64,000 nucleotides of DNA, taken from an uncultured Tolumonas sp. (lineage in GTDB: Bacteria > Pseudomonadota > Gammaproteobacteria > Enterobacterales > Aeromonadaceae). Shown here piece by piece: positions 2,563 through 17,274 of this stretch. Both the position numbers and the translations under genes were made by a program. Every line of letters starts with the position of its first letter. The first letter of the stretch is position 1. Location: positions 744,001 to 808,000 of the forward strand of contig NZ_OY782757.1 of NCBI RefSeq assembly GCF_963678185.1, read 5' to 3'. The notes below the pieces were generated by a model, which ran no database searches, was not told the DNA's origin, and was given only the letters and a program-made list of their open reading frames with translations.

Positions 2563-3420
2563 TTAAGCTATTTTCTGTTGTTCAAATTCATCTGGGCTTC
2601 TGTAATCCAGATAACTGTGTAAACGCTGTCGATTGTAATCAACTTCTATATATTCGAATACGGTTTCTCTCATCTGACTTCGGGTTTCAAATCTTTCACC
2701 ATGGATTGCCTCTACCTTCCGGCTATGGAAAAAGCTTTCTGAACAGGCATTATCGTAACAACAGCCTTTTGTACTCATGCTGCATAAAAGTTGGTGGTCA
2801 CGTAGCAATGTTTGATAATCGTGAGAACAATATTGGCTTCCTCGATCACTATGCACAACGACCCCTTTGGGGTGTTTACGACGGAATAAAGCCATCTGTA
2901 ATGCGTCACAGACTAAGTTTGCCATCATTCGTTCTGACATCGACCAGCCAATGATTTTACGTGAGTACAAATCAATCACGACTGCCATATAGAGCCAACC
3001 CTCTTCAGTCCATAGGTACGTGATGTCTCCGGCCCATTTTTGATTCGGCTGACTGGCATGGAAGTTCTGTTTCAGCAGATTTTCTGCTACCGGTAAGTTG
3101 TGGTTGCTCTGTGTCGTGGCTTTAAATTTACGTGCAGCTTTCGCCCGTAATCCTAGTCTTTTCAAGCTTGCCGCCACTATAGTGCAGTCCTTGTTTAGAC
3201 AAGCTTCGGACTAATCGAATTGCGCCACACCTGCTTTTTTCTGCCTGAAATACGAGCGCTACGTGTTTATCCAGATTTTGCTGCGCTTGTTGCCGTAGAT
3301 GACGTTTAGCGCTGCCGTTCAGCCAATGATAAAAGCTGCTCCGAGAAACATTCAGAACACGGCACATGGTCGATAAGTAAAATTTGCTTTTATATGAGCC
3401 AGCATAAAGGCGTACTTCAC
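2563..3420 (-). pseudogene. IS3-family transposase orfB (DDE integrase), frameshifted
   Basis: This is the catalytic transposase subunit. The C-terminal part (2563-3177) is a full rve-type integrase core with Asp in AGDITYL, Asp in [10 protein letters not shown] and Glu in NACSESFF. The N-terminal part (from 3367) is in another frame: CRVLNVSRSSFYHWLNG up to GLHYSGGK. The join reads agtggcggcaagcttg; one more copy of the 11-mer gtggcggcaag would restore [15 protein letters not shown] slippage loss of 11 bases fits both the sequence and the frame change. A GTG at 3420 overlapping the orfA stop opens KYAFMLAHIKANFT, which is again out of frame with CRVL, suggesting a second one-base lesion near 3377. 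Confidence 0.85.
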
Positions 3421-3716
3421 TTCAGGTGTTTGGCAAAGTACGCTGCGGCCTTTTTTACGATGGCCAGCTCTTCTGCTTGCTCTGCCAGCAAACGCTTGAG
3501 TCGAGCATTTTCATCTGCCAGGAATTGTTCTCGTTCGCTGGAAGTTTGCTGCTGACGAAATTTATTTTTCCAGTAGTAAAGCTGAGATCCCTGAATACCA
3601 AGCTGAGTTGCGGCTTTGGCAAAACCAATTCGTTCAGCTAATGCGAGCGCATCTTCTTTATAACTTTGCGAATATTGAGTTCGAGGCTTTTTCTGTTCAG
3701 TTGTAGTTTTGGTCAT
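3417..3716 (-). CDS. IS3-family transposase orfA
   Basis: The 99-residue protein has the usual OrfA plan: a helix-turn-helix (AERIGFAKAATQLGIQGSQLYYWKNKF is spread over residues 28-54) followed by a heptad-rich helix (ENARLKRLLAEQAEELAIVKKA) that in this family mediates multimerisation. It starts at an ATG preceded by GAGGTGG. Its TGA overlaps a GTG for orfB (GTGA), so expression of OrfAB would need coupling or frameshifting. It looks intact, but its partner is broken. Confidence 0.9.
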   Translation of the reverse strand: MTKTTTEQKKPRTQYSQSYKEDALALAERIGFAKAATQLGIQGSQLYYWKNKFRQQQTSSEREQFLADENARLKRLLAEQAEELAIVKKAAAYFAKHLK

Positions 3717-3753
3717 GATCCACCTCTATGAGTTATGTTACTCGTTTAATGAG

Positions 3754-3779
3754 GTGTCCAATAATGCTGGGTCAGATCA
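3754..3779. repeat. IS3 element terminal inverted repeat, orfA side
   Basis: The sequence runs from GTGTCCAATAATGCTGGG to AGATCA and pairs with 2533-2558 with three mismatches. It lies upstream of orfA and directly abuts the truncated hydrolase frame. Confidence 0.85.
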
Positions 3780-4002
3780 CTTTTATCCGTTCAATGACAT
3801 CGAGACAATTTCTCCGCGCCCGATGTTGTTTATTGCTGGTGAAGACGCGCACTCCCGCGAATTTAGTAATAATGCTTATAAATTAGCGGGTGAACCTAAA
3901 GAGCTGTATCTGGTGCCGAACACTGGTCATGTCGATTTATATGATCGTGTTGATTTGATCCCGTTTGCCAAATTGACTGATTTTTTTACCAAAAACTTAT
4001 AA
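3780..4002 (+). pseudogene. Alpha/beta hydrolase C-terminal fragment
   Basis: About 73 codons after the IS end encode the last third of a DUF1100/dienelactone-hydrolase-like protein: ISPRPMLFIAGEDAHSREFS, then a GHVDLYDR segment. In this fold GxDAHS is the acidic-residue region and the His of GHVDLYD is the catalytic His. The nucleophile Ser half is absent, and I could not find it left of the IS. The frame continues upstream into IS DNA and is not a genuine start. A hairpin after it (4039-4068) was probably the terminator of the original gene. Confidence 0.8.
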
Positions 4003-4976: not shown

Positions 4977-6154
4977 ATGAACTTTGATTTTGACAGTATC
5001 ACGCCTCGGCAAAATAGCGGATCTTATAAATGGGATATCTCTGATGACCCCGAATTGTTACCCATGTGGGTTGCCGACATGGATTTCAAAACAGCACCTG
5101 CCATTATCGAAGCACTAGAGCAACGTGTACGCCATGGAATTTTTGGATACACCAAAGTGCCAGAAACCTATTTTTCGGCGATACAACGTTGGTTTACAAC
5201 ACGTCACCAGTTTGAAATAGCGCGAGAGTGGATACTCTATACGTCAGGTGTAGTCCCAGCCCTTTCTGCCATATTACGCGCGGTCACTAACCCCGGAGAC
5301 AAAGTGCTGGTTCAGACACCAGTCTATAACTGTTTTTTTTCGTCTATTCGCAATATGGAGTGCGAGATCCTCGAAAATCCGCTTATACAAATTGATGGAC
5401 AATTCGAGATGGATTTTGCTGATTTAGAGCAAAAAGCATCATTACCGAGTGTGAAGACGTTACTTTTATGCAATCCGCATAACCCGGTTGGTCGGGCCTG
5501 GACGGCAACAGAACTGCGTCGCCTCGGCGAAATTTGCCAACGCAATAAAGTGTTGGTGATCAGTGATGAAATTCATTGTGGTCTGGTGTTTCCCCATCAG
5601 GGGCATCAACCCTATGCCACACTGGGCGCTGATTTTCTGGCGCAATCCATTACGTGCCTATCACCCAGCAAAACATTCAACATAGCCGGATTACAGATCG
5701 CCAATATTGTGGTCGCAGATCCAGCTTTACGCAGTAGCGTCGATAAAACCCTCAATATTCATGAGGTATGCGATGTAAACCCTTTGAGTGTCACAGCAAC
5801 CATTGCCGCTTATACAAAAGGTGCAGAATGGTTAGACGCACTGCGGCATTATCTCTATGAAAACTATCGCTGGTCGCCAATTTTCTCAACAGAGAATTGC
5901 CTGCACTCAGGTTGACAAAGCAAGAAGCAACCTACCTAGCTTGGATCGATTGTCGGACTATAAACATCAATTCATCGTTGATTACTCAACATTTGTCTAA
6001 AAAGGTAAATCTCTTAGTAAATGATGGCGTTCTTTACGGTGAAGCAGGAGAAGGATTCATTCGATTAAATATAGCTTGCCCTCGAACGGTTTTATTCGAA
6101 GGACTAACTCGCCTGAAGTTAGGATTAGAAAGAATTGATGAAATAGCCAATTAG
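4977..6154 (+). pseudogene. MalY/PatB-type cystathionine beta-lyase, frameshifted
   Basis: This is a fold-type I PLP enzyme of the MalY/PatB group, which cleaves the C-S bond of cystathionine or cysteine. Visible marks are [16 protein letters not shown] at the N-terminus, [19 protein letters not shown] (PLP-ring Asp) and [11 protein letters not shown] with the Schiff-base Lys. The frame breaks near 5866-5872 (cgctggtcgcc). Adding one G there restores VANFLNREL running into the second frame, EATYLAWIDCR, GEGFIRLNIACPR, and a stop at 6152-6154, giving a normal length of about 392. A one-base deletion in a GG run explains everything. The start at 4977 matches the family ([11 protein letters not shown]). 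Confidence 0.85.
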
Positions 6155-6722
6155 CACCATGGACATTACAAAGAGTCCATTAGGACGCACCAATTCATGG
6201 TTTATCAAGCAGTTACTATTTCCAACACATTTCGAACATGACCACTTATTTTAGTGGACATAGCCATGTGTGGAACAGCAACCAATTAGACCAATAACAT
6301 TCATTTGAATCTTATTAGTCTAATTTCAGGCAACTTCCCTTTGAGTGTCCAAACTGCGCCAAAACCTTCATGACTCGAGCATTTGTCTGTGCACAAACGT
6401 GCTGGTGTCAGCCTACAACCATTGTAATTCACCAGAAAATATTGCCGAAGAAACATGGATTATTTGGTTATCCTGATTTTTGATTATTCTTCCAATCGGC
6501 ATCATCACTTTTAATGATGATCGCAAGGCGTTGTAGAACTACCTAAATTCCACGTTTTTCAATTTCAAAACTTACCTTCACTTGCAACAACCTCAGAACC
6601 ATTTAGTTTTTCTTGACTTAAAAATCACATTCACTGATATTCACTTAAGTGATAATGATCTTTAAATTCCACTAATGGTCCGCACTATCTGTGCGGTTAT
6701 CTGCAATGAGAGTGAGGTAAAA
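6155..6722. other. Gap with a possible Cys-rich gene remnant and a promoter
   Basis: No complete gene is seen in these 568 bases. Codons 6319-6483 are open and encode FECPNCAKTFMTRAFVCAQT followed by CWCQP, a pattern of paired Cys recalling the small cysteine-rich CWC family. There is no start codon before the first Cys pair, so it is at best a remnant. A hairpin CCACTtattttAGTGG sits at 6242-6257. The end of the gap holds the promoter of the next operon (6613-6641). Confidence 0.35.
6613..6652 (+). promoter_or_regulatory. Promoter and likely DeoR operator for the epimerase-lactonase operon
   Basis: TTGACT (6613-6618), a 17-bp spacer and GATATT (6636-6641) form a good sigma-70 pair. From the -10 the sequence GATATTCACTTA is identical to that at the -10 of the dehydrogenase promoter (9759-9770). 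Here it continues into the perfect palindrome CACTTAAGTG (6643-6652). A near copy, GATATCACTTA, lies at 9646-9656 in front of the DeoR gene. The shared motif is read as the repressor site; this is an inference. Confidence 0.55.
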
Positions 6723-7712
6723 ATGAATATCTTACTGATTGGCGGCCTCGGCAATATCGGTGCACCTATCACCCGGCAACTGGCTAAACAAGGTCATACG
6801 GTATACGTTCTTGGTAGAAAAAAGTCCGTCACAACTCCAGCAGAGGTAATCTATATCTCAGGTAACGCGGAAGATCTCGATTTATTAACATCGTTACGAG
6901 AACTGTACCAGTTTGATGTCGTGGTAAATTTTGCCATTCAGTCAACCTTACAAGCAGAAGTAAACATCAAAGCCTTCGTAAAGCATATAAAACAGTTTAT
7001 TTTTATTAGTACGGTCACTGTGTTGGATCGGGAAAAAAACGTTGTCCTCACAGAAAATTCCGAATGTGGAAATCCGTTCAGTCTCTATGCACAAACAAAA
7101 TTACGATGCGAACAGCTGTTTCTGAATGCTTATTACCAACAACAATTTCCTGTCACCATTATTCGTCCATCCCAAACTTACAGTCATGAAAAATTCCCAC
7201 TGAGTGTCAAAGGAAAAAGTTACTGGTCAGTCATTGATCGGATACTGCACGATAAACCAGTGATCATTCATGGAGATGGCACATCCACGTGGGTGTCGAT
7301 GCATAGTGACGATTTTTGTCGAGGATTTATCCCGTTCATCAATCAACCTCAAACAATCGGAGAGATTTATCATCTCACTGGTGATGAAATACTTACCTGG
7401 AACATGATCTATCATGAGTTAGCCAGACAGCTGAATAAACCGCTAAAAATCGTCCACATACCGACTGACTTACTTGCACAAAGCACTCAATACGATTTCA
7501 AAACATCGATCAAAGGCGACAAGCAATACTCAGTCATATTTGATAATCACAAACATAAACAGATATGTCCGGATTTTCAGTGTCAGATCACCATGCAAGA
7601 TGGCATTCGTCAGTTTCTTGAATACATGGAAGCACATCCTGAATTGAAAGTATCTGACCTGGAATGTGACCAATGGTGTGATCAGGTTATTGAACGAGGA
7701 GTGATCCAGTGA
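6723..7712 (+). CDS. NAD-dependent epimerase/dehydratase (extended SDR)
   Basis: The 329-residue protein has an N-terminal Rossmann motif, LLIGGLGNIGAPITRQLAKQ (GxxGxxG), and the SDR active site YxxxK in SLYAQTKLRCEQ with an upstream ISTVTV strand. Extended SDRs of this type epimerise, dehydrate or oxidise sugars, often as nucleotide derivatives. The substrate cannot be told from sequence. The start is the ATG at 6723 after GAGGT; the upstream in-frame extension to 6675 has no ribosome binding site. It overlaps the next gene by 4 bases (GTGA), so the two are co-translated. The shared promoter motif links it to the DeoR repressor and the Gfo/Idh/MocA dehydrogenase nearby. Confidence 0.8.
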   Translation: MNILLIGGLGNIGAPITRQLAKQGHTVYVLGRKKSVTTPAEVIYISGNAEDLDLLTSLRELYQFDVVVNFAIQSTLQAEVNIKAFVKHIKQFIFISTVTVLDREKNVVLTENSECGNPFSLYAQTKLRCEQLFLNAYYQQQFPVTIIRPSQTYSHEKFPLSVKGKSYWSVIDRILHDKPVIIHGDGTSTWVSMHSDDFCRGFIPFINQPQTIGEIYHLTGDEILTWNMIYHELARQLNKPLKIVHIPTDLLAQSTQYDFKTSIKGDKQYSVIFDNHKHKQICPDFQCQITMQDGIRQFLEYMEAHPELKVSDLECDQWCDQVIERGVIQ

Positions 7713-8722
7713 ATTTGACGACTTTTTTAATTGGATATGGCGATGCTCATGGAAATGGGCGGGGCATTTACGCAATTAAGATCAATCACCATCATATGCA
7801 GACCAGACTAGCATATGCTTGCCCGATGAAACCCGGCGCCATTATCACCGTCAATAACCGGCTTTATATGTCTTATCAGGATGAGAATAAAGCATCTGGT
7901 CTGTTATGCTGTTCTCTCGATACAAACTCAAACCTGACTTTATTGCACCAGCAACCGCTTCCCTTTTTTATCACTTCATGGTCGCAGACAAATGTTCCTG
8001 AGCAACTTCTTGGCTCATCATTTTATGATGGTGTGGACGTAATGTTTCAGCTCGATCAAGAAGTCCAGATCAAAAATGTTGTTCCGCATGTTTACCGACC
8101 GAGAAGTGCGGATATTCGGCAAACAACAACCCACCCTCATCATATTTGTACCTTCAATGATGGACAGAATGCTTATTCCGTTGATATGGGCATTGATTTC
8201 GTCAGCTTTTACTCAATCACCAACCATGAACTTAACTTGCTCAAAAATATTTATATAGACTGCCCATTCGGCTCAGGGCCACGGATCATGCGGGTCAGTT
8301 CAGACGGACGGTTTGCCTATTTATTACATGAAATTGCCAATGAAATAGCTGTCTACGATCTCTCTGATTTTCAATGCAAAGAGATCCAGCGGTTATCTAC
8401 GGTGAATAATCCTACAACGGCAACAAATAGTGCCGCAGGTTGTGTATTAACCGCCGACGGCAAGCATTTACTGGTCACTAACCGAGGCGAAAATACGTTG
8501 GTTCTATTCAGCATTCACCCAATTACGGGGCTTTTGATATGCACTGACCGCCAAGCAACCCGTTTATCGCCAAGAGACCTGTATATCCAAAATAATATGG
8601 TTATTGTTGCCGCACAGGCTGAAAATTATTTGCAGTTATTTGAAATTGATGAGAACCATCATCAGCTCACATTAGTCAATGAAGTCGCCAATATTGCATC
8701 ACCGGTTAGTTTTCTTCAATAA
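7709..8722 (+). CDS. Lactonase-like beta-propeller protein
   Basis: The 337-residue protein starts at GTG, overlapping the stop of the epimerase gene. It has the look of the seven-bladed lactonase (6-phosphogluconolactonase/YbhE-like) family: THPHHICTFNDG, GPRIMRVSSDGRFAYLLHE, LTADGKHLLVTNRGENTLVL and a final SPRDLYI-type blade. There is no signal peptide. In a sugar-oxidation route such a protein would open the lactone formed by the dehydrogenase encoded at 9805-10794, which makes the grouping sensible. It is rather divergent, so a non-enzymatic propeller is possible. It is convergent with the DeoR gene, 21 bases apart. Confidence 0.7.
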   Translation: MNLTTFLIGYGDAHGNGRGIYAIKINHHHMQTRLAYACPMKPGAIITVNNRLYMSYQDENKASGLLCCSLDTNSNLTLLHQQPLPFFITSWSQTNVPEQLLGSSFYDGVDVMFQLDQEVQIKNVVPHVYRPRSADIRQTTTHPHHICTFNDGQNAYSVDMGIDFVSFYSITNHELNLLKNIYIDCPFGSGPRIMRVSSDGRFAYLLHEIANEIAVYDLSDFQCKEIQRLSTVNNPTTATNSAAGCVLTADGKHLLVTNRGENTLVLFSIHPITGLLICTDRQATRLSPRDLYIQNNMVIVAAQAENYLQLFEIDENHHQLTLVNEVANIASPVSFLQ

Positions 8723-8743
8723 AACGCAACAAGCCGGCAGATA

Positions 8744-9517
8744 TCACATGTCTGCCGAAATTGAAGTATCCGTCACGATGATCAGCTCAACTTCATTCTC
8801 TTCAATACATTTTAAAATATTCGCAGGCGGTTGCTTGTCAGTGATCACGCAGTCAATCTCCGCCCAGCCACAAGACTGATACATCAACTGAGAATTGAAT
8901 TTTGAAAATGTCGCTATGCAGATAACCATTTTTGATTGTTGTGCCATGGCTATTTTTAATAAAGCATCCATTTCAGTATCTGTTGTAATGCCCGCTTCTG
9001 ACAAAGCGCTAACACCAAGAAATGTCTTATCTGCCTGATACCGTTTGATCTGTTCAATCGTGATCTGGCCTAAAATGGTATGTGAAAACTCATCAAATGC
9101 CCCGCCTAAAACACATTTTCTTATATTATCTTTCCCATTCAATTCATTAAGCACTTCGATAGAATTCGTAATAATATTGCTTGGTGTCTGTAAATGGTGT
9201 GCCAACGCGGCCATTGTTGTACCCGCATCAAGAAAGATAATGTCATTTTCGTTGATCAGATTTAAAGCGTGGCGAGCCAAATAATCTTTCGTTTCGCTAA
9301 ATTCGCTGCGTTGAAGATAGGACAAACTCAGTCTTTTTTCAGAAAGGATTGCGCCTCCGCGAATACGGAGAATGCCCGGGATCTTCGTGAGTTTCACCAG
9401 ATCCCGACGTGCCGAGTCATACGAAATCTGATATTGCTGACAGATATAATCGAGCGTAACCTTCCCCTGCGCTCTTACAAATGCCTCCAATTCAATTAAG
9501 CGTTCTTCTTGCGTCAT
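8744..9517 (-). CDS. DeoR-family transcriptional repressor
   Basis: The 257-residue regulator has an N-terminal winged helix-turn-helix (LDYICQQYQISYDSARRDLV, then LRIRGGAI) and a DeoRC sugar-phosphate sensor domain with DAGTTMAALAHHL and the later LGVSAL...TDTEMDALLKIAM segment. The start chosen is ATG 9517 (MTQEERLIELEAF) because GCAGGAGA sits 8-12 bases before it; the frame is open upstream to 9562 but without support. It lies between the epimerase-lactonase operon and the divergent dehydrogenase gene. DeoR proteins usually repress adjacent sugar catabolic genes and release DNA on binding a phosphorylated sugar. Confidence 0.88.
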   Translation of the reverse strand: MTQEERLIELEAFVRAQGKVTLDYICQQYQISYDSARRDLVKLTKIPGILRIRGGAILSEKRLSLSYLQRSEFSETKDYLARHALNLINENDIIFLDAGTTMAALAHHLQTPSNIITNSIEVLNELNGKDNIRKCVLGGAFDEFSHTILGQITIEQIKRYQADKTFLGVSALSEAGITTDTEMDALLKIAMAQQSKMVICIATFSKFNSQLMYQSCGWAEIDCVITDKQPPANILKCIEENEVELIIVTDTSISADM

Positions 9518-9645
9518 CGATCTGTCTCCTGCTCTCACTTCAATTTTTTGCCATGCAATCAATTAACTTTCCTTACATTACCTTATTTTTGTTTAGATAT
9601 CTTTAACTGCATAATAATTCATGACCCTGAAACCATTAAACGCGT

Positions 9646-9656
9646 GATATCACTTA
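9646..9656. promoter_or_regulatory. Third copy of the putative DeoR operator motif
   Basis: GATATCACTTA differs from the GATATTCACTTA copies at 6636 and 9759 by one missing T. It lies about 130 bases upstream of the deoR-type start, so it could serve autoregulation or loop with the copy at 9759. Confidence 0.35.
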
Positions 9657-9735
9657 AAAAAGCAGACCGCAACAACATTTTTACGCACAAAAACTTATAA
9701 ATAGTCACATTAAAGCACTAATAATGCACAATCGC

Positions 9736-9785
9736 TTGACAAAAAGACCAATAAACTCGATATTCACTTACGCTAATTCAAGTGT
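9736..9785 (+). promoter_or_regulatory. Promoter and likely operator of the dehydrogenase gene
   Basis: TTGACA (9736-9741), a 17-bp spacer and GATATT (9759-9764) make a strong promoter. The -10 opens the motif GATATTCACTTA shared with 6636-6647. Downstream, CACTT (9765-9769) is followed by an inverted AAGTG at about 9779-9783, echoing the CACTTAAGTG palindrome at 6643. Confidence 0.5.
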
Positions 9786-9804
9786 TATGTAAGGGGTGAT
9801 AATG

Positions 9805-10794
9805 ATGCGACTTGGTATTGTGGGTGCAGGAAATATTGTGAAATGGTGTCTTGAGGCTCTGGCCTTGGCAAATGATGTATCCTGTGAGGCAATTTGTGTT
9901 CTGGAAAGCGATTTAGACATTGCAAAAAGTTATCAGCTTAAATTTGCCATTCCCAAAATTTATACCGATTTCAACTTGCTGCTTGCAGACCCAGACATTG
10001 ATTTCATTTATCTGGGGATCCCGAACAAACTACATTTTTCGTATGCATTGAAAGCACTCATGGCAAACAAGCATGTGATCAGTGAAAAACCTTTCACATC
10101 TAATGTGGATGAAGCATTGCAATTAGCTGAACTGGCGAAAAAGAATAAACTTTTTCTATTTGAAGCAATCACCACGATTTATGCCCCTAACGTCCTTTTA
10201 TTGAAAGAACAGTTACCACGGATTGGCGCCATCAAAATGATCCAGAGTAACTACTCACAATTTTCCAGCCGGTATAAACAATATTTAGCAGGTCAGGTGC
10301 ATCCCGCGTTTGATCCAGCAATGTCAGGTGGGGCGTTGTACGATATTAATATCTATAACATTCACCTTTCCTGCTTTTTATTTGGCATACCTGATCGCAT
10401 TGAATATTTTATTAATCAAGGATTCAACGGCGTTGATACTTCAGGTGTTGTTATTATGCAATATCCAGAATTTTTATCGGTTTGTACTGGTGCAAAAGAT
10501 TCGGCCAGCCCAAGTCAAACAATCATTCAAGGCACCGAGGGTTATATTAAATTAACCAGTTCACCTAACATTGCTCGTTCAGTTGAAATTGTCGTTCATG
10601 ACGAGGTACAGGAACTCAATCAGAATAAATTTGAAAATCACATGGTCTATGAAATGAATGCTTTCTGCAAAATGTATACGCAGCAGGATCATGACGCATG
10701 CTATCGCAATTTAGATCATTCAATCGCTGTAATGAAAATTTTGACAGAGGCGAGAAATAAAGCAGGAATTATTTTTAATGACTCGAAAATTTAG
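9805..10794 (+). CDS. Gfo/Idh/MocA family oxidoreductase
   Basis: The 329-residue protein has a Rossmann N-terminus (LGIVGAGNIVKWCLEAL) and the family hallmark EKP in HVISEKPFTSNVDEAL, where the Lys is catalytic or cofactor-binding. The C-terminal half has the GGALYDINIYNIHL segment that carries the conserved D/H of this family. Members oxidise sugars, inositols or related compounds with NAD(P). The start is ATG 9805 (or 9802), 5-8 bases after AAGGGG; an upstream GTG at 9796 overlaps that site. The gene is alone downstream of its promoter and divergent from the DeoR repressor. No transporter or kinase for a sugar is nearby. Confidence 0.85.
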   Translation: MRLGIVGAGNIVKWCLEALALANDVSCEAICVLESDLDIAKSYQLKFAIPKIYTDFNLLLADPDIDFIYLGIPNKLHFSYALKALMANKHVISEKPFTSNVDEALQLAELAKKNKLFLFEAITTIYAPNVLLLKEQLPRIGAIKMIQSNYSQFSSRYKQYLAGQVHPAFDPAMSGGALYDINIYNIHLSCFLFGIPDRIEYFINQGFNGVDTSGVVIMQYPEFLSVCTGAKDSASPSQTIIQGTEGYIKLTSSPNIARSVEIVVHDEVQELNQNKFENHMVYEMNAFCKMYTQQDHDACYRNLDHSIAVMKILTEARNKAGIIFNDSKI

Positions 10795-10815
10795 CCTCCA
10801 TTGGAGGCCTATCAA

Positions 10816-12081
10816 TTACATCTTGATCTGTGGGGGGCGATCGTTCGATTCAAATAAAATATGCCCTTCTCCATCCACAACAATGACATGATGCACATCG
10901 CTGATGCGAGGGAATTGATATTTTGCAATTTGCGCGGCAACAACGGCTTTCGGCACAGCATGTGTCCGGTTGGCATTGCCACTATAGATAGCCGTTTCTG
11001 GCGCAAGAAAAATCACTAACGTGATTAAAGCATGCTGATCGCGCGCCAGCGCATACAACGGTTTTCGATAGTCTTGGCGCAGATTGGTGGCATCCCAAAC
11101 CACGGTGCACTTCTCTCGTAAATACTGTTTCAATTTTTGCTGTGCTGTAGCGACAACTAATTCGGGGTTATCTTGGCAGGCGCGATTACCCCAAAGCTCT
11201 TCCCTGATAGCATCCAGCGAAACCACTGACATATTTTGACAATGACGCGCTACATAACGGGATTTACCTATGCCGCTTGGCCCGCACAACAAAATTAAGT
11301 GCGCATGTTCATCTTTGTGACGCGACAATTTCGCGATAGCATTTTTTACCGAAACACAGGTGCCCCGCTGCATGCTCTCAACCACCAGTGATTTCAAATA
11401 CCGTTGTGCACGCTGTGATTCATGAGCAATCAATCGATCGAGTTCATCGGTGGAAAAAGGTTGATGCCATAAACCATTAGCCTCACAGTGCTGGCGATAT
11501 TGTTCGAGATATTGAAGTTGATGCGGAATGGCTTCGCCTATTCGCCCCTGCATGTCGGCGCGCTCCAGCCAGTAGAGTAATGCCAGATCGGCACGGCGAG
11601 CCAAGGCGATATACGCACCATGATCCATATTCTGCACGACTAACATTTTCGGTATCTGGTGTTCGCCCACCAAACCAAGCACAGTCCAGATCACTGTAAT
11701 TGGCAATGGCAATTTCATGAGCTGGAAAGCCAGATAAGAGCGCCCCTTGGCTTCATGATCCGGGGAGCCAATGCGTTGTTGCCCGCGAATAGTCATTTTA
11801 CGGGTGTTACGCGTCTTGCCGATATCATGAAATATCGCCGCTAAAATCAATACCTGGCGTTGTTGCCCATTCAGATAAGCCGCCTCTTTAGCCAGTAATT
11901 GATAGAGTTTTTCTAACACCATCCCGGTATGAATGTGCACATTCCCCTCTGCGTGCCAACCGGGATCTTGCGGGGTTTTCCTTAGATCATTTAACCACGG
12001 AATAACAGGGCCAAGTTGTTGCACACATTCATCAATAGATGGTGTGGCAAAATGGCAAAGCTGTTGCAGCCACTGTTTCAT
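10816..12081 (-). CDS. HD-domain plus polynucleotide-kinase-like ATPase
   Basis: The 421-residue protein fuses two domains. Residues about 45-170 form an HD phosphohydrolase-like domain (HIHTGMVLEKL, AAIFHDIGK with HD at 85-86, then SPDHEAKG and VGEHQIPK). Residues about 262-410 form a P-loop kinase (CGPSGIGKS at 267-274, VVWDATNLRQDYRK at about 325) like bacterial and T4-type polynucleotide kinases. This layout is found in RNA- or DNA-end healing proteins, where the kinase phosphorylates a 5' end. No ligase gene is beside it. The start is ATG 12081, preceded by AGGA at 8 bases; a TTG one codon earlier is less likely. It stands alone and is convergent with the dehydrogenase gene. Confidence 0.75.
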   Translation of the reverse strand: MKQWLQQLCHFATPSIDECVQQLGPVIPWLNDLRKTPQDPGWHAEGNVHIHTGMVLEKLYQLLAKEAAYLNGQQRQVLILAAIFHDIGKTRNTRKMTIRGQQRIGSPDHEAKGRSYLAFQLMKLPLPITVIWTVLGLVGEHQIPKMLVVQNMDHGAYIALARRADLALLYWLERADMQGRIGEAIPHQLQYLEQYRQHCEANGLWHQPFSTDELDRLIAHESQRAQRYLKSLVVESMQRGTCVSVKNAIAKLSRHKDEHAHLILLCGPSGIGKSRYVARHCQNMSVVSLDAIREELWGNRACQDNPELVVATAQQKLKQYLREKCTVVWDATNLRQDYRKPLYALARDQHALITLVIFLAPETAIYSGNANRTHAVPKAVVAAQIAKYQFPRISDVHHVIVVDGEGHILFESNDRPPQIKM

Positions 12082-16725: not shown

Positions 16726-17274
16726 TTAGCCTTTCATCTTCAGTTCTATACCAGACACGACCAGATACATCTCTTTTGCTTTGGCGGCTAACAGCTGGTT
16801 AACTCGCCCAGCAATATCACGAAATCGTCTGGCTAAGAGATTATCGGGAACAATGCCAAAACCCACTTCGTTCGTGACTATATAGACTGGGCATGGGCTT
16901 GCGAGACAAGCGGCGATCAAATCCTCAATCTCAACCATGATCCGCTGTTCAATGGCCGCAAAATCCATCATTTCTGCAGGAATATCCCCTGTTTTATCAA
17001 ACATGAGGTTGGTGATCATAGTGGTAATACACTCCAGCATGATGGCATCACAATCAGCACTTCGCTGGCGGATCACCCTACCAAGTTCACAATACCCCTC
17101 ATGCGTAAGCCATTGTGCAGGTCTGGTTTGTTGATGAATGACGATGCGTTCTGCCATTTCATCATCCGTAACGATAGATGTGGCAATGTATAAAACATTA
17201 TCGCCTTGCTGCGCGGCAAATTGTTCTGCCAATCGACTTTTACCGCTACGTGCACCGCCCGTGATCAAAATCAT
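16726..17274 (-). CDS. cobU: Adenosylcobinamide kinase / guanylyltransferase
   Basis: The 182-residue bifunctional enzyme phosphorylates adenosylcobinamide and transfers GMP to give AdoCbi-GDP, in nucleotide-loop assembly of vitamin B12. The P-loop ITGGARSGKSRLAEQ is at the very N-terminus, as in CobU, and YIATSIVTDDEMAERI with a downstream HQQTRP are typical. Length agrees with CobU (about 181). It is 58 bases downstream of cbiB on the same strand. cobS and cobT are not in the window. Confidence 0.93.
   Translation of the reverse strand: MILITGGARSGKSRLAEQFAAQQGDNVLYIATSIVTDDEMAERIVIHQQTRPAQWLTHEGYCELGRVIRQRSADCDAIMLECITTMITNLMFDKTGDIPAEMMDFAAIEQRIMVEIEDLIAACLASPCPVYIVTNEVGFGIVPDNLLARRFRDIAGRVNQLLAAKAKEMYLVVSGIELKMKG

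Follow-up and report, generated by a model that had tools for sequence, protein, structure and literature searches.

Sugar regulators of the DeoR type are described as acting mostly on adjoining genes, some on operators that are palindromes, and one of them, Corynebacterium SugR, is released by sugar phosphates (from the passages of PMC2222622 that deal with these points). The motifs of another member of the family, RhaR, are built of direct repeats that are imperfect and recur every 10-11 bp, according to the corresponding part of PMC3870299. On the enzymatic side, the relevant sections of PMC9795676 state that aldose dehydrogenases of the Gfo/Idh/MocA family form lactones by means of a base that is generally Tyr or His, and describe a system that combines such an oxidoreductase with a lactonase. 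Here we analyse a window of 64,000 bases, namely bases 744001-808000 of a 3,948,912-base genome placed in the genus Tolumonas by the genome grouping used. It contains four genes that encode an extended short-chain dehydrogenase/reductase (SDR), a beta-propeller lactonase, a DeoR-family regulator and a Gfo/Idh/MocA oxidoreductase (Gfo). As in the RhaR and SugR regulons, the regulator adjoins its presumed targets; the CTTA half-site, the other enzymes and a cassette without transporter or kinase distinguish the locus from those regulons as portrayed in the passages cited. Like the system of PMC9795676, the cassette pairs a Gfo/Idh/MocA oxidoreductase with a lactonase, and the two seem to be controlled jointly here, but compared with what that section covers its lactonase is of the propeller type, an extended SDR is added, and dehydratase, aldolase and semialdehyde dehydrogenase are lacking. 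Open-licence literature yielded no paper combining Gfo/Idh/MocA, lactonase and DeoR, and no title on the cassette for Tolumonas. Based on the comparisons that follow, we interpret the locus as a self-contained cassette of four genes for sugar oxidation, controlled by a single local repressor of the DeoR family, a reading to which we assign a probability of about 0.62.

The first line of evidence is the conservation of the unit as a whole. The coordinates and gene calls of an earlier note on this DNA proved right, and Pfam confirmed the genes as an epimerase-type SDR, a 7-bladed lactonase, DeoR and Gfo/Idh/MocA. The comparison set consisted of eleven genus genomes, that of the window and ten others. 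Two of the ten, Tolumonas osonensis (G004) and a second genome (G007), carry the complete four-gene cassette with its gene order unchanged, at different places in the chromosome, and the layout, an SDR-lactonase pair, a convergent deoR and the Gfo gene, is fixed in all three. Protein identity to the orthologues in G004 and G007 is 77-78% for the SDR, 60-62% for the lactonase, 82-84% for DeoR and 79% for Gfo. When the window's first 20 kb were compared with the 18 kb surrounding each of the other two copies (blastn, E<=1e-5), the cassette was the sole block in common with either relative. It follows that the cassette of the two relatives is accompanied by neither a transporter nor a kinase, and the earlier claim that the unit holds neither is upheld for the cassette as shared by the three copies. 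In the window the shared block begins at 6713-6714, so that its SDR promoter, conserved in the core only, falls outside. Between G007 and G004 the block runs from upstream of the SDR promoter to a few bases from the Gfo stop codon, and beyond it only a duplicated promoter segment was matched. The SDR is present in 4 of the 11 genus genomes and a DeoR orthologue (E<=1e-30) in 3 of the 11, the same three that have the full cassette and the promoter motif described below, whose model was run on seven of the eleven. In a class sample of 369 genomes the SDR was met in two (E<=1e-20; the window's own and one other at 32%), and Gfo (E<=1e-50) and DeoR (E<=1e-40) each in one, again the window's own. 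The cassette has a lower G+C content than its flanks in G007 (0.397 vs 0.464) and in G004 (0.412 vs 0.450), and has probably moved horizontally between sites. Taken as a whole, the unit is genuine, compact and conserved, and we read it as a local sugar regulon.

The second line of evidence comes from the promoters. The earlier note had described two operons around deoR with near-identical promoters, TTGAC(T/A) followed by a 17-bp spacer, and this was borne out: TTGACW-N17-GATATTCACTTA matches the window twice on the + strand (6613-6647 and 9736-9770) and none of 100 dinucleotide shuffles. The 12-mer GATATTCACTTA has exactly two copies in the 3.95-Mb genome, both at the cassette promoters, and a reversed-pattern control gave none. 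The symmetry of CACTT and AAGTG that had been proposed is present at both promoters, but its spacing is not the same, the two halves abutting directly at 6642-6651 ahead of the SDR gene and standing N10 apart at 9765-9784 ahead of the Gfo gene. The check that had been suggested, conservation of the motif in orthologous promoters, was run, and each relative with an intact cassette has the motif at its two promoters. A gap-free alignment of the six promoters shows that all retain TTGAC, GATATT after a 17-base spacer, and ACTTA; within GATATT[C/T]ACTTA one base varies, a T replacing C in the relatives' Gfo promoters. Models trained on a subset of the promoters also recover the others, the window's SDR promoter only weakly. 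A model built from the relatives' four promoters recovered nothing at E<=1 in the window's own genome other than the two promoters of the window (2.0e-8 and 0.011), and a model built from the three Gfo promoters ranked the SDR promoter next after the training site in each genome (2.4e-9, 6.1e-9 and 0.118). A model of all six promoters was run on seven of the eleven genomes, including four that lack DeoR, with 150 candidates scored per genome, so that weak sites may have been overlooked and sites without this promoter type likewise missed. The six training sites, found by construction, scored E<=1.2e-11 and all else E>=0.04, the next best being 0.0406 in G007 and 0.045 at 17160-17196 in the window's own genome; no strong extra site of a wider regulon with a distant transporter appeared in these seven genomes. 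The third near copy of the motif that had been placed before deoR, GATATCACTTA, is rejected: it is one base short, lies on the + strand though deoR is on the - strand, and is not kept in the two relatives, where a 10-bp direct repeat, CCTTACATTACCTTAT in the window, is conserved instead.

To what would the regulator bind? From the repeats in these regions we infer a candidate operator made of CTTA half-sites that DeoR would recognise. ACTTA is found in 6/6 promoters, and in the two relatives CTTA-N8-TAAG stands just past the -10 in 4/4. In the window, transcripts are predicted to begin near 6649 and 9772. A direct repeat some 50-70 bp before the deoR start is kept in 3/3 genomes. So is the position of the ACTTACCTTCACTTGC repeat, 43-45 bp ahead of the SDR -35 hexamer, which is an exact CTTA-N6-CTTA in the relatives and CTTA-N6-CTTG in the window. 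In the six intergenic regions we counted 7 direct CTTA pairs 10 bp apart, with 0.06 expected, and 4 inverted pairs 12 bp apart, with 0.03 expected; neither count was attained at any spacing in 500 shuffles. Three of the seven direct pairs lie before deoR, one per genome, and two at 43-44 bp before the relatives' SDR -35. Across 178 kb in seven Tolumonas stretches (cassettes included), the cassette intergenic regions account for 7 of the 8 direct pairs and 4 of the 5 inverted ones. Direct repeats resembling the RhaR motifs, whose period is 10-11 bp, occur in the SDR and the deoR region of all three genomes, imperfectly at the window's SDR, whereas the core of the Gfo promoter carries an inverted repeat. 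The regulator itself passes the Pfam gathering scores for HTH_DeoR (37.3 of 21 bits) and DeoRC (139.1 of 31.8 bits). Ten NCBIfam models of named DeoR members (AgaR, GlpR, SrlR, UlaR, YgbI, DeoR and others) were matched, none at its cut-off, and the best was AgaR with 132.1 vs 260 bits. A DeoR relative at 37%, located on Priestia plasmids (L147, 7001-7789), adjoins N-acetylmuramic acid genes (anmK, murQ and a phosphotransferase system (PTS) gene). Two further symmetric elements lie in the window. A perfect hairpin, CCGCAC-TATCT-GTGCGG, at 6680-6696 in the SDR leader is not kept in the two relatives, and an inverted repeat, CGGCAGA-N9-TCTGCCG, at 8735-8757, lying between and over the convergent ends of the lactonase and deoR genes, is without a T run and was for that reason not called by a terminator scan, which called none.

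Several observations weigh against this reading. The whole cassette is found in two relatives only. In a further genome, G008, which is 70% complete, a lactonase at 48% stands beside a partial SDR gene inside which the contig ends; there deoR is not next after the SDR-lactonase pair, and a search of this incomplete genome gave no deoR orthologue. In the window, the G+C content of the cassette equals that of its left flank (0.401 and 0.402). The relatives examined elsewhere show no coupling of these genes, which leaves the pathway without outside support. At the promoters, the 12-mer with two mismatches is not far from its chance frequency in the window (11 copies vs 6.35 expected), copies with one mismatch are numerous in each of four genomes searched, and G007 has one exact 12-mer at the cassette and a second outside it. 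A generic sigma-70 scan of 6400-10900 gives 9 sites, below the shuffle count of 14.2. As read from these sequences, the promoter finding stands on exactness, position and conservation. The window's SDR promoter is weak in the cross-tests (E 0.118 and 0.011) and without the N8 repeat. Among the half-sites, 2 of the 7 direct pairs lie elsewhere, one downstream of the SDR promoter in G004 and one over the Gfo operator in G007; ACTTA counts are unremarkable in 2 of the 6 regions (fractions 0.077 and 0.060); and in the window alone neither CTTA-N6-CTTA (2 found vs 1.42 expected) nor CTTA-N8-TAAG (0 found vs 0.65 expected) exceeds chance. The counts are also to be read with the knowledge that orthologous regions are non-independent, that the promoters look like duplicates and that the CTTA spacing was noticed before counting. 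Finally, the likeness of the two promoters is probably due in part to duplication of a segment of ~100 bp.

This duplication underlies the first alternative, in which the promoters are copies of one segment, the motif reflects inheritance together with the usual constraints on a sigma-70 promoter, and the two promoters are not both regulated by DeoR. In the relatives, a likeness of ~100 bp links the SDR promoter region to that of Gfo (scores 61-76 vs shuffle maxima of 27-32), from which it appears that one promoter probably arose by copying of the other. The segment around one SDR promoter (L014, 7263-7411) aligns with that around the other genome's Gfo promoter (L015, 10486-10633) in a match of 152 columns at 72%, a case of a control region duplicated within a single small regulon. 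Both hexamers (-35 and -10) do belong to the conserved core, and the lack of excess repeats in the window alone suits this alternative as well. However, the window's SDR promoter region has worn almost to background when compared with its Gfo promoter region (score 30 vs a shuffle maximum of 31) and yet the -35/-10/ACTTA core has been kept; the conserved CTTA repeats occur outside the hexamers and before deoR too; and the motif is confined to DeoR-bearing genomes among the seven searched. We consider this explanation unlikely.

Returning to a cassette governed by its own DeoR repressor, how might it work? DeoR would sit on the CTTA half-sites and block RNA polymerase at both promoters and at its own, and a sugar phosphate would release it. 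Gfo would then form a lactone by oxidising an aldose or aldose phosphate, the propeller lactonase would open this lactone, and the SDR would perform a further redox or epimerisation step. Since the DeoR sensor suggests a phosphorylated sugar as the signal, uptake and phosphorylation would be supplied from elsewhere in the cell, as the earlier note supposed. A pathway running from Gfo through the lactonase to the SDR is plausible, its order and product being guesses. The enzymatic route is a reasonable guess, and the regulation is of a known, ordinary kind. Gfo passes the Pfam gathering scores for its Rossmann domain (77.9 of 24 bits) and C-terminal domain (45.1 of 27 bits), and narrowly misses a second C-terminal model (22.4 of 22.9 bits). 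Its EKP and DINIY motifs are invariant in 3/3 Gfo proteins and align with dimeric dihydrodiol dehydrogenase (2o48), an enzyme that comes next among its structure matches after 2ho5 and 4iq0, to neither of which a reaction is assigned. The NCBIfam model for D-xylose 1-dehydrogenase Gfo6 was not matched at its cut-off (68.4 of 350 bits). The Lys/Tyr pair within these motifs is compatible with aldose oxidation and would suit a lactone better than a keto sugar as product. In the window's own genome a 58% Gfo paralogue exists, which in the genomes viewed lies mostly apart from sugar genes. A 59% paralogue in G004 (L045, 1389-10074, - strand) adjoins genes that, from their translations, we take to resemble an allose/ribose ATP-binding cassette (ABC) transporter operon; elsewhere its neighbours are others.

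The lactonase passes the gathering score of PF10282 with 153.3 of 21.7 bits. It shares this fold family, and the conserved His, Arg, Glu and Arg positions, with YbhE-type 6-phosphogluconolactonase and the gluconolactonase PpgL, and it aligns with solved propellers that include PpgL. It differs from the YbhE type in falling far under the cut-offs of both 6-phosphogluconolactonase NCBIfam models (74.1 of 370 and 102.1 of 500 bits). His144/145, Arg192, Glu208 and Arg259 (GTG start = 1), which we take to be the catalytic residues, are invariant in 4/4 lactonase sequences. A first scan of the genome contigs with the lactonase as query gave no match.

A search for the substrate was made through the relatives of the cassette proteins. 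For the SDR, the best 80 of at least 576 relatives in named genomes were kept and 79 examined, the T. osonensis cassette being set aside; many of the contigs around these 79 are short. At E<=1e-4 a Gfo-like neighbour was found beside 3 of the 79, and a DeoR- or lactonase-like neighbour beside none of them. On plasmids, SDR relatives lie near Gfo-type genes in Agrobacterium (together with a sugar isomerase) and Streptomyces, and the contexts in Deinococcus and Brachyspira differ, while the Paenibacillus and Subdoligranulum records are unannotated at that place; plasmid relatives of Gfo and DeoR had no gene context in common. In Selenomonas a 48% Gfo relative adjoins a PTS EIIA gene and a DeoR-type gene whose product is 27% identical to the window's DeoR. 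One viral relative was seen, at 25%. No relative examined names a substrate. A second alternative is that the cassette is a clean-up device removing a damaged or stray intracellular sugar or sugar phosphate and hence has no need of a transporter or kinase. The three cassette copies are indeed unaccompanied by either, and Gfo relatives elsewhere often stand alone, the 58% paralogue included. Yet the patchy presence in the genus suits a special substrate over housekeeping, and no evidence points to any metabolite to be cleared; we hold this alternative to be improbable.

In the SDR, Ser96, Tyr122, Lys126 and Trp190 are present in 27/27 aligned sequences, and three aligned nucleotide-sugar enzymes carry Arg at the position of Trp190. 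In nucleotide-sugar enzymes this Arg contacts the diphosphate. Named models of nucleotide-sugar epimerases and dehydratases were not matched at their cut-offs (best 48.1 of 365.1 bits), and we take the substrate to be, probably, something other than a nucleotide sugar. The structure model is confident, with a best predicted local distance difference test (pLDDT) score of 91.7, and its nearest folds are UDP-glucose epimerases and dTDP-glucose dehydratases at a template modelling (TM) score of ~0.75 and ~20% identity. A role in surface-sugar synthesis, with the SDR as a nucleoside diphosphate (NDP)-sugar epimerase or dehydratase and Gfo as an NDP-sugar dehydrogenase, could draw on those folds, on a distant match of Gfo to UDP-GlcNAc 3-dehydrogenase (47.5 of 450 bits) and on a 32% SDR relative near a rhamnan-synthesis-type gene on a Brachyspira plasmid, but it is very unlikely given the invariant Trp190, the absence of any flanking gene common to the three cassette copies, and a lactonase and DeoR sensor that would suit catabolism better. 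Outside the genus, the relatives among the best 80 are at most 45-46% identical, the best coming from Anaerolineaceae, Erysipelotrichaceae, Paenibacillus, Prevotellaceae and others, and no close relative, solved or named, with an assigned reaction was found. A bolder version of the catabolic reading, possible but doubtful, would make the three-enzyme route new and complete for some sugar or sugar phosphate, built on an uncharacterised Trp-bearing family of extended SDRs and carried, together with a DeoR switch of its own, in a mobile unit; the SDR family occurs in several phyla, among them Bacillota, Bacteroidota and Chloroflexota.

Table 1. Genes and candidate control elements of the cassette (window coordinates).
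Feature	Position	Strand	Details
ACTTACCTTCACTTGC, imperfect 10-bp direct repeat	6570..6585	+	43 bp before SDR -35; candidate distal DeoR site
SDR-lactonase operon promoter	6613..6641	+	-35 TTGACT, 17 bp, -10 GATATT; 9/12 consensus matches
TCACTTAAGTGA, perfect 12-bp palindrome	6641..6652	+	candidate operator over SDR promoter start site
Extended SDR (epimerase/dehydratase-like)	6723..7712	+	329 amino acids; YxxxK (Y122, K126); Trp190
7-bladed beta-propeller lactonase (PF10282)	7709..8722	+	337 amino acids; GTG start overlaps SDR stop
DeoR-family regulator	8744..9517	-	257 amino acids; HTH_DeoR and DeoRC sensor (Pfam)
CCTTACATTACCTTAT, 10-bp direct repeat	9571..9586	+	54-69 bp upstream of deoR start; candidate autoregulatory operator
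GATATCACTTA, supposed third motif copy	9646..9656	+	not conserved; judged chance
Gfo gene promoter	9736..9764	+	-35 TTGACA, 17 bp, -10 GATATT; 10/12 consensus matches
ACTTA-N8-CAAGT inverted repeat	9766..9783	+	candidate operator over Gfo promoter start site; imperfect
Gfo/Idh/MocA oxidoreductase	9805..10794	+	start 9802 or 9805; Lys95 of EKP, Tyr184 of DINIY (from 9805)

The DNA to the left of the cassette is a disturbed region. On the + strand, a PatB-type C-S lyase gene extends over two overlapping frames within 4977-6154 (4977-5915 and 5897-6154); its first part matches 1-298 of the 384 positions of the profile, so that the gene looks frameshifted. On the - strand, at 2563-3716, open reading frames for an integrase core and a small helix-turn-helix protein resemble, from their translations, an IS3-type insertion, and they adjoin a possible hydrolase fragment at 3709-4002 without a family match.

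What are the implications of such a cassette? It brings together one regulator, two promoters and three enzymes in a compact regulon, with candidate operators placed to the base and three natural variants. The cassette is a small genetic system for finding the reaction of a multi-phylum SDR family.

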